Source of the DNA: Patescibacteria group bacterium
GTDB lineage: Bacteria > Patescibacteriota > Minisyncoccia > Minisyncoccales > PEYH01
Assembly (NCBI GenBank): GCA_018817645.1
Contig: JAHITK010000011.1
Location: forward strand, 1-36,207
Direction: 5' to 3'
DNA length: 36,207 bases
Part shown: one piece after another, positions 1,081 to 27,476 of the stretch
How the letters are laid out: each line of letters starts with the position of its first letter
Position numbering within the stretch: the first letter of the stretch is position 1
Made by a program: the position numbers and the translations under genes
The notes under the pieces: model-generated
Seen by the model: the letters and a program-made list of their open reading frames with translations, nothing else
What the model was told of the DNA's origin: nothing
The model's database searches: none

Positions 1081-1097
1081 GAAAATGATAATTTATG

Positions 1098-1173
1098 CGC
1101 GGGCGATGGGATTTGAACCCACGATCTCTGCCGTGACAGGGCAGCGCTTTGAACCGGACTGAGCTACGCCCGC
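1098..1173 (-). tRNA. tRNA-Asp (anticodon GTC)
   Basis: The acceptor stem is GCGGGCG/CGCCCGC. The anticodon arm CTGCC-CTGTCAC-GGCAG gives GTC, the T arm is canonical (GGGTTCAAATCCC), and discriminator G is at 1098 as expected for Asp. The D stem is slightly weak (GCTC against AAGC). CCA is not encoded: the sequence after the discriminator reads CATAAAT. It is the last gene of a minus-strand tRNA cluster with a terminator right after. Confidence 0.92.
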
Positions 1174-1188
1174 ATATTCTTTTTTTTA

Positions 1189-1262
1189 TGCCGGTGGAGG
1201 GATTTGAACCCCCGACACAAGGATTATGATTCCTCTGCTCTTGACCACTGAGCTACACCGGC
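1189..1262 (-). tRNA. tRNA with CAT anticodon (elongator Met, or Ile read after lysidine modification)
   Basis: The acceptor is GCCGGTG/CACCGGC with discriminator A. The D arm is GCTC-AGTGGTCAA-GAGC, the anticodon arm GAGGA-ATCATAA-TCCTT gives CAT, and the T loop is normal (TTCAAAT). It is not the initiator: the 1-72 pair is Watson-Crick and the anticodon stem lacks the run of G-C pairs. Elongator Met and tRNA-Ile2 share this anticodon and cannot be told apart safely by eye. CCA is not encoded. Confidence 0.88.
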
Positions 1263-1362
1263 CGGCTACAACAATACAAAACATGTCGCGGGGCCTGGAA
1301 TTGCACCAGGGTCTGGGGCTTCTGTTATACTTCTTGTTTCCAAGAAGAATGGACTATACCAT

Positions 1363-1467
1363 CCCCGCCCTCTATGCCTGCTGAATATTTAATTCGGTAA
1401 TTCAATCCTATTAAGAATTGAGAATTGAAAACTAAATTAATTTATTCCGCGAGCTTAGAGGGCGGGG
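1363..1467. repeat. GC-clamped palindromic element, copy 1 (forms intron P8)
   Basis: CCCCGCCCTCTA (1363-1374) is the exact reverse complement of TAGAGGGCGGGG (1456-1467). The interior of about 80 nt is AT-rich. It forms the P8 helix of the group I intron. Copies 2 and 3 have the same arms and a similar length. Confidence 0.6.
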
Positions 1468-1491
1468 TTCCCATTATAGTCTCTGAACCTT

Positions 1492-1589
1492 CCCCGCCCC
1501 CTATACACACAGAATTTTACAGAAGCGCGCTCCAAAATCCACAGAGAATTGAAGCACTAATTGTTTTTCTATGTGCTTAGGGGGCGGGG
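1492..1589. repeat. GC-clamped palindromic element, copy 2 (forms intron P6 extension)
   Basis: CCCCGCCCCCTA (1492-1503) pairs perfectly with TAGGGGGCGGGG (1578-1589), with inner CACA/TGTG pairing. It forms the P6 extension of the intron and differs from copy 1 by one arm base. Confidence 0.6.
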
Positions 1590-1877
1590 CTTGGCTGCTG
1601 ATTGCCAAATCTTCTTTTTTTTCAAACAATCGCGCCTATCCTTTCGGATTACGCTGTTGTAAAAGAAGCTCTAATGGTTTTCCAGCAGTTTAGGGAATTT
1701 TCCACAGAACATTACTGTCCTGGGTCACACTTTGGATATGAGACCCCCGAGATACTACTTCTCTACCCCGCTCTAATCAATTTAACAATTAAACAAGTAA
1801 ACAAACGCTTCGCTTAAGCAATTTAACAATTCAAGGAGCGATTGTTTATTAACCTTTGTTATGATAACTCACAAACG

Positions 1878-4292: not shown

Positions 4293-5378
4293 TTATGATT
4301 GTTCGCCCGGTTGACGCGGGGGCGCAAACTCTTCTTTTTCCGATAAAACATCTTCCAGCTGGTCAATATTTTCCAGCACCATCCCGGCGCCCCTGACCAC
4401 TGCAGTGAGGGGATCTTCAATAATTTTAGTCGGTATTTTGGTTTCTTTGGAGATTAATTCATCTAATCCTCTTAACAGCGACCCGCCTCCGGCCAGGAAA
4501 ATTCCCCGGGTCATTACATCTGCCACTAATTCCGGCGGAGTCGCTTCGATCGTATCTTTTATGGCATTAACGATTTGCCTCACTGATTTTTGAAGAGCCA
4601 TCCTGATGCTGTCTTCACTCACTATTACCTCTTCCGGCAATCCGGTAATCAAATTCCTTCCTCGAATCGGCATCTCTGCCTTGCCATTTTTGCCGGACTT
4701 GGTTCCTTTGCTGGAATAGATAGAGCCGATCTTGATTTTTACTTTTTCCGCGGTGCGCGAGCCAATCAACAAATGATATTCTTCCTGACTGAAATCAATA
4801 ATATCCTGATCAAGCTTGTCGCCCGCAATCTTCAAACTTTGGGCAAGGACTATCCCGCCCAGAGATATCACCGCGATATCGGTCGTACCACCTCCGATAT
4901 CAACAATAAAATTTCCGCCGGGCTCTTGAATCGGCAAACGCGCCCCTATGGCAGCCGCAATTGGCTGTTCGATTAAATAAACCTTTCTGGCACCGGCGTT
5001 CTTGGTAGCGTCCCGAACCGACTTTTTCTCCACCTCGGTGAGACCGCAAGGAATGCCAACGATTACTCTGGGCCTTGGAAAAACAACCCGATTTTTATAA
5101 GCGCCTTCAATAAAATATTTAAGCATTTGCTCGGCTATCTCAAAATCCGAGATTACGCCTTTAACCAGAGGCCGGCTGGCAACAATATGGGTCGGGGTTC
5201 TGCCTACCATTCTCTTGGCTTCCTGGCCGATGGCTAAAACCTGCCCTGTTTTTTGATTAATCGCCACCACCGACGGCTCGGTGATGACAATCCCCTCTCC
5301 TTTCACATAAGCAAGGGTGGTGGCTGTTCCCAAATCAATGGCAATATCTTTCTTTAATTTAGAAAAAGGATTAAACAT
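4293..5378 (-). CDS. mreB: MreB-family actin-like cell shape protein (copy B)
   Basis: 361 aa. MreB forms membrane-associated filaments that guide cell wall synthesis. Actin-fold nucleotide motifs are present: DLGTATTLAYVKGEG near residue 16 (phosphate 1), VDIGGGTTDIAVISLGG in the middle (phosphate 2) and IFLAGGGSLLRGL near the end (adenosine). The C-terminus carries about 15 extra acidic and Pro-rich residues (SEKEEFAPPRQPGEQS). A second mreB lies at 11.2-12.2 kb and is clearly different, so these are paralogues. It lies between proS and gatC with short gaps. Start ATG at 5378, no SD. Confidence 0.92.
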   Translation of the reverse strand: MFNPFSKLKKDIAIDLGTATTLAYVKGEGIVITEPSVVAINQKTGQVLAIGQEAKRMVGRTPTHIVASRPLVKGVISDFEIAEQMLKYFIEGAYKNRVVFPRPRVIVGIPCGLTEVEKKSVRDATKNAGARKVYLIEQPIAAAIGARLPIQEPGGNFIVDIGGGTTDIAVISLGGIVLAQSLKIAGDKLDQDIIDFSQEEYHLLIGSRTAEKVKIKIGSIYSSKGTKSGKNGKAEMPIRGRNLITGLPEEVIVSEDSIRMALQKSVRQIVNAIKDTIEATPPELVADVMTRGIFLAGGGSLLRGLDELISKETKIPTKIIEDPLTAVVRGAGMVLENIDQLEDVLSEKEEFAPPRQPGEQS

Positions 5379-11240: not shown

Positions 11241-12248
11241 TTATTTCTTGCTCATTATGCTCCGCTTATAAACATCCAGATTCTCCAAGACCGCTCCTGT
11301 TCCCTTGGCGACGCAGAAAAACGCCTCATCTGCCAAGAAGCAAGGCACCCCGGTCGTCTTGGCTATTAATTGGTCAAGGTTTCTTAATAATCCTCCTCCG
11401 CCGGAAAGCACCATCCCTTTATCCATAATGTCAGAGGCCAGCTCAGGCGGAGTATCCCGCAGAACCAGTTTAATGGCTAAAATAATCTCTTCCAAAACAT
11501 CTTGAATCGCCTCGCATACTTCATTGGAAGAAACTTTAATGCTTCTGGGCAGGCCGGAAACCAAATCCCGGCCCCTGATTTCTATGAATCTCTCTTTCTC
11601 TTCGGGAACGGCTGTCCCTACTTTTATTTTTACCTCTTCCGCGGTCTGCTCTCCGACTGCCAGATTGTGCTTCTTTTTAATATACTCGCTTACCGCAACA
11701 TTCATTTTATCTCCGGCCACTCTGATAGAATTGAAGGTGACAATTCCGCCTAAAGATATCACCGCCACCTCGGTGGTTCCCCCGCCTACGTCAACAATCA
11801 TATGGCCGGAGCAGGTGTGAATCGGGATGCCCGCTCCGATGGCTGCCAGAATCGGCTCTTTGGCAATATAGGCGTTTTTGGCTCCGGCCAGAATAGCTGC
11901 CTCGATAACCGCTCTTTTCTCAGTGGAGGTGATTCCCGCCGGCACGGATATTATCAAATCCGGCTTCACAAATTGGTATTTTGGCTTAACTTTCGTGATA
12001 AAATATTTCAACATTGCTTCGGTTATCCGGAAATCAGCAATCACTCCGTCTTTAAGGGGCCGAAAAACCGTTATAGTTTCCGGAGTTCGGCCGGTCATTT
12101 CCTTTGCTGCCTGACCAACCGCTAAAATCCTGTTCTCGCTCACCTCAACCGCCACCACAGAGGGCTCGGTCAAAACCACCCCTTTCTTGGGGATAAACAC
12201 AAGAGAATTACATGTTCCAAGGTCTATGCCAATTTTGCGGATAAACAT
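11241..12248 (-). CDS. mreB: MreB-family actin-like cell shape protein (copy A)
   Basis: 335 aa from ATG 12248 (MFIRKIGIDLGTCNSLVF), which drops a 7-residue upstream stretch. Actin-fold motifs: DLGTCNSLVFIPKKG (phosphate 1), VDVGGGTTEVAVISLGG (phosphate 2), MVLSGGGGLLRNLDQL (adenosine). The length is typical of MreB. It differs from copy B in many positions, and the conserved hydrophobic start MFIRKIG could be a membrane contact. It follows murA across an AT-rich repeat gap and may be cotranscribed with it, which fits joint work on cell wall growth. No mreC/mreD in the window. Confidence 0.92.
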   Translation of the reverse strand: MFIRKIGIDLGTCNSLVFIPKKGVVLTEPSVVAVEVSENRILAVGQAAKEMTGRTPETITVFRPLKDGVIADFRITEAMLKYFITKVKPKYQFVKPDLIISVPAGITSTEKRAVIEAAILAGAKNAYIAKEPILAAIGAGIPIHTCSGHMIVDVGGGTTEVAVISLGGIVTFNSIRVAGDKMNVAVSEYIKKKHNLAVGEQTAEEVKIKVGTAVPEEKERFIEIRGRDLVSGLPRSIKVSSNEVCEAIQDVLEEIILAIKLVLRDTPPELASDIMDKGMVLSGGGGLLRNLDQLIAKTTGVPCFLADEAFFCVAKGTGAVLENLDVYKRSIMSKK

Positions 12249-12259
12249 ATTTATAAATC

Positions 12260-12376
12260 CAAATGACAAAATTCAAATGACAAATCAAGCCCAAAGCTCA
12301 AAATCCAAAAATATTATTATTTTGACATTTGGATTTTGACATTGATTTGACATTTGAGCTTTGGATTTTGGATTTT
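12260..12376. repeat. Dispersed AT-rich hairpin element, copy A
   Basis: The segment between murA and mreB holds AAATGACAAATCAAGCCCAA in its left half and TTTGACATTTGAGCTTTGG in its right half, largely complementary. The right half closely matches the right halves of the copies at 30.1 kb and 35.6 kb. No gene is present. Confidence 0.55.
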
Positions 12377-19240: not shown

Positions 19241-19460
19241 GTGTCAATGCTGCCCAAGAGGGCAAATGAATGATAATGAGTGCGGCTCCGATTGGCTGCA
19301 GGATTGAACACCCCGCCCCTTCTATATCTCGAAGATTATCGCGCATCTATCTTTATTAAAAATATTGTTGATACTGGAGATGCCCGAGACCTAGAAGGGG
19401 CGGGGTAAAAATCCAGTAAGCTTAAGCTTCGCTAAAACTTGCTTTCGCTAACTGGCTCTT
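19241..19460 (-). other. Structured intergenic region between rpsM and rpsK
   Basis: 220 nt where bacteria usually have a few bases. It has the palindromic element at 19311-19405. Flanking it is sequence with weaker pairing (GGGCA/TGCCC at 19252-19262). No ORF is convincing. As it is transcribed with the operon it could be a processing site, an attenuator or simply an inserted element. Confidence 0.4.
19311..19405. repeat. GC-clamped palindromic element, copy 3
   Basis: CCCCGCCCCTTCTA (19311-19324) is the exact reverse complement of TAGAAGGGGCGGGG (19392-19405). Inner TCTCG/CGAGA and GCATCT/AGATGC pairs extend the hairpin. The arms and the length of 95 nt match the two copies inside the tRNA-fMet intron. 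Confidence 0.6.
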
Positions 19461-27416: not shown

Positions 27417-27476
27417 TGTTAGGGTGCGACCCTAACAATGGCGTCCCGACAACGATGTTAGGGTCGCACCCTAACA
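27417..27476. repeat. Pair of 21-bp inverted palindromes
   Basis: GTTAGGGTGCGACCCTAAC (27418-27436) and its reverse complement (27457-27475) face each other across about 20 nt; with flanking T/A the match is 21 bp. Each half is itself nearly palindromic (GTTAGGGT/ACCCTAAC). They sit between the promoter of one accessory gene and the terminator of the next. Confidence 0.7.

Follow-up and report, generated by a model that had tools for sequence, protein, structure and literature searches.

The only initiator tRNA gene found in a patescibacterial genome is interrupted by a group I intron with repeat-family hairpins as P6 and P8

Results

Interrupted initiator tRNA gene

The only initiator tRNA gene that was found in the draft genome of a Patescibacterium contains a complete group I intron, inserted after U36 and thus between positions 36 and 37. 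We hold it to be highly probable that this sole initiator gene is matured by group I splicing, with the P6 and P8 helices of the intron probably rebuilt by genomic repeats. The gene lies in the window, which is the whole stretch of 36,207 nucleotides that was analyzed, and belongs to a small tRNA cluster with the following members.

1738..1772, minus strand: 5' exon of the initiator tRNA (positions 1-36, ending in ...CUCAU), identical to the 5' half of the intact tRNA-fMet gene of G009
1322..1737, minus strand: group I intron of 416 nt with its terminal G at 1322, matched by RF00028, with boundaries from the empty site
1286..1321, minus strand: 3' exon of the initiator tRNA (AAGCCCC... to A73), from the tRNA call on the joined exons and the empty site
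1189..1262, minus strand: elongator tRNA-Met(CAU), next in the cluster, a neighbor kept in relatives
1097..1173, minus strand: tRNA-Asp(GUC), next after the elongator tRNA-Met

The first-pass annotation had recognized two tRNA halves 416 nt apart at 1286-1772, and the intron delimited here has exactly that length. The Rfam group I intron model (RF00028, score cut-off of 50) matched 1330-1750 on the minus strand with 78.2 bits and E=2e-18, covering model positions 1-253 of 253. When the exons 1738-1772 and 1286-1321 were joined, the resulting 71 nt were called tRNA-Met(cat) by ARAGORN, with A1 unpaired opposite G72. Without intron search, ARAGORN reported tRNA-Asp and tRNA-Met alone at the cluster and missed the split initiator. 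With introns allowed, it found a split tRNA at 1285-1772 with a 416-nt intron, which was labelled Leu(cag) because the intron was placed about two bases off.

The splice joint could be fixed because relatives carry the uninterrupted gene, which was present in six species of the same family (G009, G006, and G001-G004). In G009, a member of the same genus, the intact initiator gene stands beside the same tRNA-Met. The comparison with the empty site placed the 3' splice boundary at ...AACAG^AAGCCCC, with the terminal G preceding the site. The longest ORFs overlapping the intron had at most 71 aa, and no homing endonuclease gene was seen in the intron in the ORF list of the window.

The spliced product combines a CAU anticodon with an A1.G72 mismatch, which identifies it as an initiator and agrees with the missing 1-72 pair noticed at first reading. 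A review states that the triple G-C of the anticodon stem is present in all initiator tRNAs (PMC4611024). The window initiator has no such triple at 29-41, 30-40, and 31-39, and its 31-39 pair is U.G. Among the 147 intact initiators of the order, the full G29-C41, G30-C40, G31-C39 triplet occurred in one and was missing in 146; pair 29-41 was A-U in 123, pair 31-39 was U.G in 84, and base 33 was C in 53. Therefore, the missing triplet is a trait of the lineage and no argument against initiator identity. An influence of the intron that imposes U31.G39 or C33 on the tRNA was rejected, since both are common in the intronless initiators of the order.

Structure of the intron

The intron was read helix by helix, and its elements were assigned as follows.

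1738..1741, minus strand: exon strand of P1 (U33-C34-A35-U36), with the U36.G wobble at the splice site, pairing in 12/12 orthologues
1725..1729, minus strand: internal guide sequence 5'-UGUGA-3', the 3' strand of P1
1702..1724, minus strand: P2, with covariation in 7/9 pairs
1693..1697 (5' strand) and 1468-1472 (3' strand), minus strand: P3, with covariation in 4/5 pairs
1682..1688 (5' strand) and 1595-1601 (3' strand), minus strand: P4, nearly invariant, with 98.8% of cells paired
1605..1677, minus strand: P5 with a long extension, from alignments; the P5 pairs covary
1492..1589, minus strand: P6, a 98-nt hairpin of the CCCCGCCC repeat family, where G008 has a short P6
1476..1481 (5' strand) and 1352-1357 (3' strand), minus strand: P7, invariant in 12/12
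1363..1467, minus strand: P8, a 105-nt hairpin of the CCCCGCCC repeat family, short in G008 and all others
1330..1347, minus strand: P9 hairpin, with covariation in 5/7 pairs

P2 to P9 followed each other in the canonical group I order and were succeeded by the terminal G. In the window sequence, every one of the 72 pairs that make up the drawn structure is of a standard type. The order of P3, P4, P7, P9, and terminal G agrees with that given by the first-pass annotation. The P1 with an exon strand and a U-G pair at the splice site, also read there, recurred in 12/12 orthologues. In all of them, Y33-C34-A35-U36 pairs with 5'-GUGR-3', and the first intron base additionally pairs with U. A nine-base-pair register of P1 reaching into the anticodon stem was rejected because it is conserved in the family of the window only.

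The P5 extension was long in most orthologues and short or absent in five. Two GC-armed hairpins of about 100 nt as P6 and P8 were found in the window copy alone among the orthologues. The early impression of unusual peripheral helices thus holds in the sense of a long P5 in most orthologues and of hairpin P6 and P8 here alone.

P6 and P8 hairpins and their repeat family

Compared to the intron of G008, the window intron differed mainly by two long inserts, located exactly at P6 (1492-1589) and P8 (1363-1467). Both inserts are near-perfect hairpins with the arms CCCCGCCCYCTA/TAGRGGGCGGGG, and their predicted folds reached -55.2 kcal/mol (z=-8.9) for P6 and -48.2 kcal/mol (z=-9.4) for P8. The genome of the window (G000) contains seven copies of the CCCCGCCC hairpin, each 75-105 nt long, at the following sites.

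Window 1363-1467: hairpin copy that forms P8
Window 1492-1589: hairpin copy that forms P6
Window 19310-19406: hairpin copy between ribosomal protein genes
C15:6165, C20:13279, C27:44085, and C27:63939: the remaining hairpin copies

The seven hairpins compare with none in each of eight second-order Markov genomes, and 54 hairpin arms were counted in the genome versus 9-28 in the second-order Markov genomes. No CCCCGCCC hairpin was found in G008. The copy between the ribosomal protein genes ends nearly as the one at C15:6165-6262 does, and one of the seven copies encloses an entire tRNA gene that lies within a second one.

Five Y1 transposase genes were identified in the genome of the window, one of which (C12:2708-3073) is bracketed by the same arms as the P6 and P8 hairpins. 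From this proximity, the hairpins probably represent a REP-like element that a Y1 transposase of the IS200/RAYT type would mobilize. The resemblance to REP/RAYT systems lies in dispersed GC-rich palindromes and in the transposase between matching arms. In contrast to these systems, the hairpins of this genome are 75-105 nt long and have a variable interior; classical REPs are shorter.

Palindromic repeats of two other families, AGGGTGCGACC (about 52 nt) and TACGAGGCCSG (about 84 nt), flank the Y1 transposase genes at C4:24097 and C16:20692 on both sides in a REP/RAYT-like arrangement. Their sites are listed below.

C4:23797-24773 of G000: AGGGTGCGACC / TACGAGGCCSG repeats
C16:20248-22139 of G000: AGGGTGCGACC / TACGAGGCCSG repeats
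Window 27421-27472: AGGGTGCGACC / TACGAGGCCSG repeat site

The hairpins could instead have grown in place, by local duplication or by selection for stability. Both occupy stems that already existed, they differ in their interiors, and no clear target-site duplications were seen at them, all of which fits growth in place. However, near-identical arms occur at five other sites of the genome, including intergenic ones, and none in G008, so that we regard local origin as somewhat unlikely. On the preferred reading, P6 and P8 would have been rebuilt, in the species of the window only, by two copies of the GC-armed palindromic repeat. The catalytic core would have stayed intact because each hairpin, being self-complementary, landed at a peripheral loop and lengthened its stem. 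The wider proposal, that one mobile palindrome family settled twice in the ribozyme of the sole initiator with the core unbroken and also brackets nested tRNA genes, is quite possible, and we advance it tentatively.

The same enlarged domains bear on whether the ribozyme acts alone. Some group I introns require proteins such as tyrosyl-tRNA synthetase or an RNA chaperone (PMC3984707), and with its enlarged P5, P6, and P8 and their unusual peripheral domains the window intron might need such a host protein for excision. However, orthologues with a minimal P5 and short P6 and P8 have the same core, and the core pairs are complete in the window copy. We regard dependence on a protein as rather unlikely.

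Nested tRNA genes

In several places, a complete tRNA gene bracketed by inverted GC-rich arms was observed within the D loop or the anticodon region of an outer, split tRNA.

C27:63910-64067 of G000 (L004 2411-2568): nested tRNA site
C1:57323-57502 of G000 (L100): nested tRNA site
C27:52807-53079 of G000 (L003): nested tRNA site
L068 1573-1735 of G002: nested tRNA site in a relative
L186 ~1445-1630 of G005: nested tRNA site in a relative

The inner tRNAs were Thr GGU, Arg CCG, Val CAC, Met CAU, and Gly CCC. In the Arg case, the outer tRNA was likewise Arg(CCG) once rejoined. Two nested cases have the CCCCGCCC arms of the P6 and P8 hairpins. A literature search found no published account of tRNA genes nested inside tRNA genes. 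Elsewhere in the window, the translations of 4293-5378 and 11241-12269 were recognized by eye as two MreB-like proteins.

Covariation across orthologous genes

The alignment comprised 12 orthologous interrupted genes (the window, G005, G008, G011, G014, G026, G065, G088, G111, G161, G245, and G318), eleven of which come from the order of the window and one (G318) from elsewhere in the class. Across these orthologues, 98.4% of the cells of the 72-pair structure were paired, and 42/72 pairs had changed on both sides. None of 500 shuffles matched the real alignment on any measure. Slid registers paired in 36-45% of cells, compared to 98.4% for the true register.

Exon base 33 covaried with the guide, as U-A in nine sequences and C-G in three. 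Each exon contributes one strand of the anticodon stem, which was 100% paired and showed covariation in 4/5 pairs. Since this stem belongs to the mature tRNA, its covariation indicates that selection kept the spliced product. P4 is nearly invariant and P7 fully so; therefore, these two helices are backed by conservation only and the remaining helices by covariation.

Search for a second initiator

The assembly of the window is a draft of 665,325 bases in 28 contigs and was rated 100% complete. A tRNA covariance search, BLAST with the spliced exons, and ARAGORN found no second initiator in these 665,325 bases. The one other CAU tRNA of the assembly is an elongator with G1-C72. Other hits were set aside: a tRNA-Gly(acc) on C4, which lies within a coding-like stretch, a T-arm match at C1:67685, which is tmRNA, and a match to the joined exons at G008:C14, which is unrelated sequence with no tRNA.

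A pattern scan of 247 genomes of the order detected the interrupted initiator gene in 11. A twelfth match (G227) was discarded as an accidental hit to an actually intact tRNA. By the same pattern approach, an intact initiator was found in 0/11 interrupted genomes and in 145/247 overall. The mutual exclusion of intact and interrupted genes is limited by the sensitivity of the patterns, because about 90 genomes matched neither.

According to the first-pass annotation, either the intron is active or another fMet gene exists. The assembly yielded no second initiator, which favors the former branch: since no intact initiator is detectable in the interrupted genomes of the order, the intron would have to splice, and we infer from conservation and necessity that it does so in the cell. 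The covariance-model search and the tRNA call that the annotation had proposed were both positive, and neither of the refuting outcomes named there, a missing group I hit or an intact tRNA-fMet together with decay of this copy, was observed. A further initiator in an assembly gap of the 28-contig draft retains a slight probability.

Such a gap would also be needed if the intron were dead and the gene a relic. The draft state of the assembly leaves room for this, and ARAGORN on the whole assembly likewise did not find tRNA-Phe, Gly(GCC), Val(GAC), Ile(GAU), and Ala(UGC/GGC), which may be interrupted in unmodelled ways or lie in gaps. However, the 72/72 structural pairs are intact in the window copy, compensatory changes across the 12 genes preserve both the intron core and the mature tRNA, and gaps would hardly remove the intact gene from 11/11 interrupted genomes by chance. 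A relic gene is thus very improbable. An assembly chimera, conceivable for a metagenome assembly, deserves practically no credence, as the same interrupted gene occurs in eleven other species on independent contigs and the tRNA-fMet/Met/Asp order is repeated in several species.

In the same genome, tRNA-Ile(UAU) was observed at C5:6510-6582 and Ile2(CAU) was not seen, which suggests that AUA may be decoded without lysidine.

Distribution of the introns

Group I introns were detected in 114/247 genomes of the order. Of the best-scoring loci whose flanks were read, eight lie in tRNA-fMet, three have rRNA-like surroundings, and the majority of the others have flanks that read as tRNA-Asn(GUU). 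The latter include the second group I intron of the window genome at C26:9387-9650 (L002 1478-1741), with the exon loop CUGU^UAA. Its splice site follows U35, inside the anticodon GUU, and the contig ends right past the gene.

Outside the order but within the class, one sampled genome (G318) matched the interrupted-initiator pattern. The pattern scan of GTDB r220 returned 23 records, of which 20 proved on inspection to be chance matches in other phyla; the true hosts of the fMet intron were 'Candidatus Parcubacteria', 'Candidatus Nealsonbacteria', and an unclassified Patescibacterium. The host of the window intron is itself a Patescibacterium (Parcubacteria/Nealsonbacteria-like).

The fMet intron is patchy, with one or few species per family and empty sister species. 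Intron-bearing and empty species stand side by side within single genera: G000 and G008 versus G009, G014 versus G013 and G015, G026 versus G027, and G065 versus G064. This pattern suggests that the intron may have been gained or lost repeatedly.

Discussion

The proposed maturation pathway takes its mechanism, guanosine attack followed by exon ligation, from known group I introns. The precursor would presumably be transcribed together with the downstream tRNA-Met and tRNA-Asp. Once the intron has folded, guanosine would attack in P1 behind U36. Exon 1, thereby released, would attack behind the terminal G, and the joined exons would be processed to tRNA-fMet.

Known self-splicing introns of other tRNAs likewise reside in the anticodon loop, and their splice site is preceded by a U that pairs with G in P1. 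Their periphery is compact and has none of the extensions seen in the window intron. Group I introns in cyanobacterial tRNA-fMet are cited for Synechocystis PCC 6803 and Gloeobacter violaceus (Biniszkiewicz 1994 and Paquin 1997, as cited in PMC8450103). These introns, too, interrupt the initiator tRNA in its anticodon loop. In contrast to them, the window intron has no endonuclease ORF and belongs to another phylum, the difference in host type that the first reading had anticipated. Furthermore, the GUGR guide is conserved in the patescibacterial lineage, the P5 extension is present in most orthologues, and repeat hairpins occupy P6 and P8 of the window copy.

A preprint from 2025 (Nakagawa et al., bioRxiv 2025.07.03.662931, title as cited in PMC12641178) concerns, by its title, introns of the same kind in the tRNA genes of Patescibacteria. 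The combination of host and site, tRNA-fMet in Patescibacteria, may already be listed in it. The kind of intron is already known; what is new is the formation of P6 and P8 by GC-armed hairpins of about 100 nt from a seven-copy genomic repeat family.

Because tRNA finders without intron search miss interrupted genes, initiator tRNAs look absent in such genomes. The patchy intron beside intact sister loci offers a natural system for gain and loss in an essential gene, and the P6 and P8 inserts are a natural experiment on the extent of peripheral rebuilding that a group I intron can undergo. If mobile palindromes did settle in the ribozyme, a hairpin transposon of Patescibacteria would have preferred and tolerated insertion sites in the loops of structured RNA genes. 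As the searches revealed no backup gene, translation initiation in this minimal bacterium would depend on ribozyme splicing, and such dependence would extend to at least eleven species within a single order and to one species elsewhere in the class.
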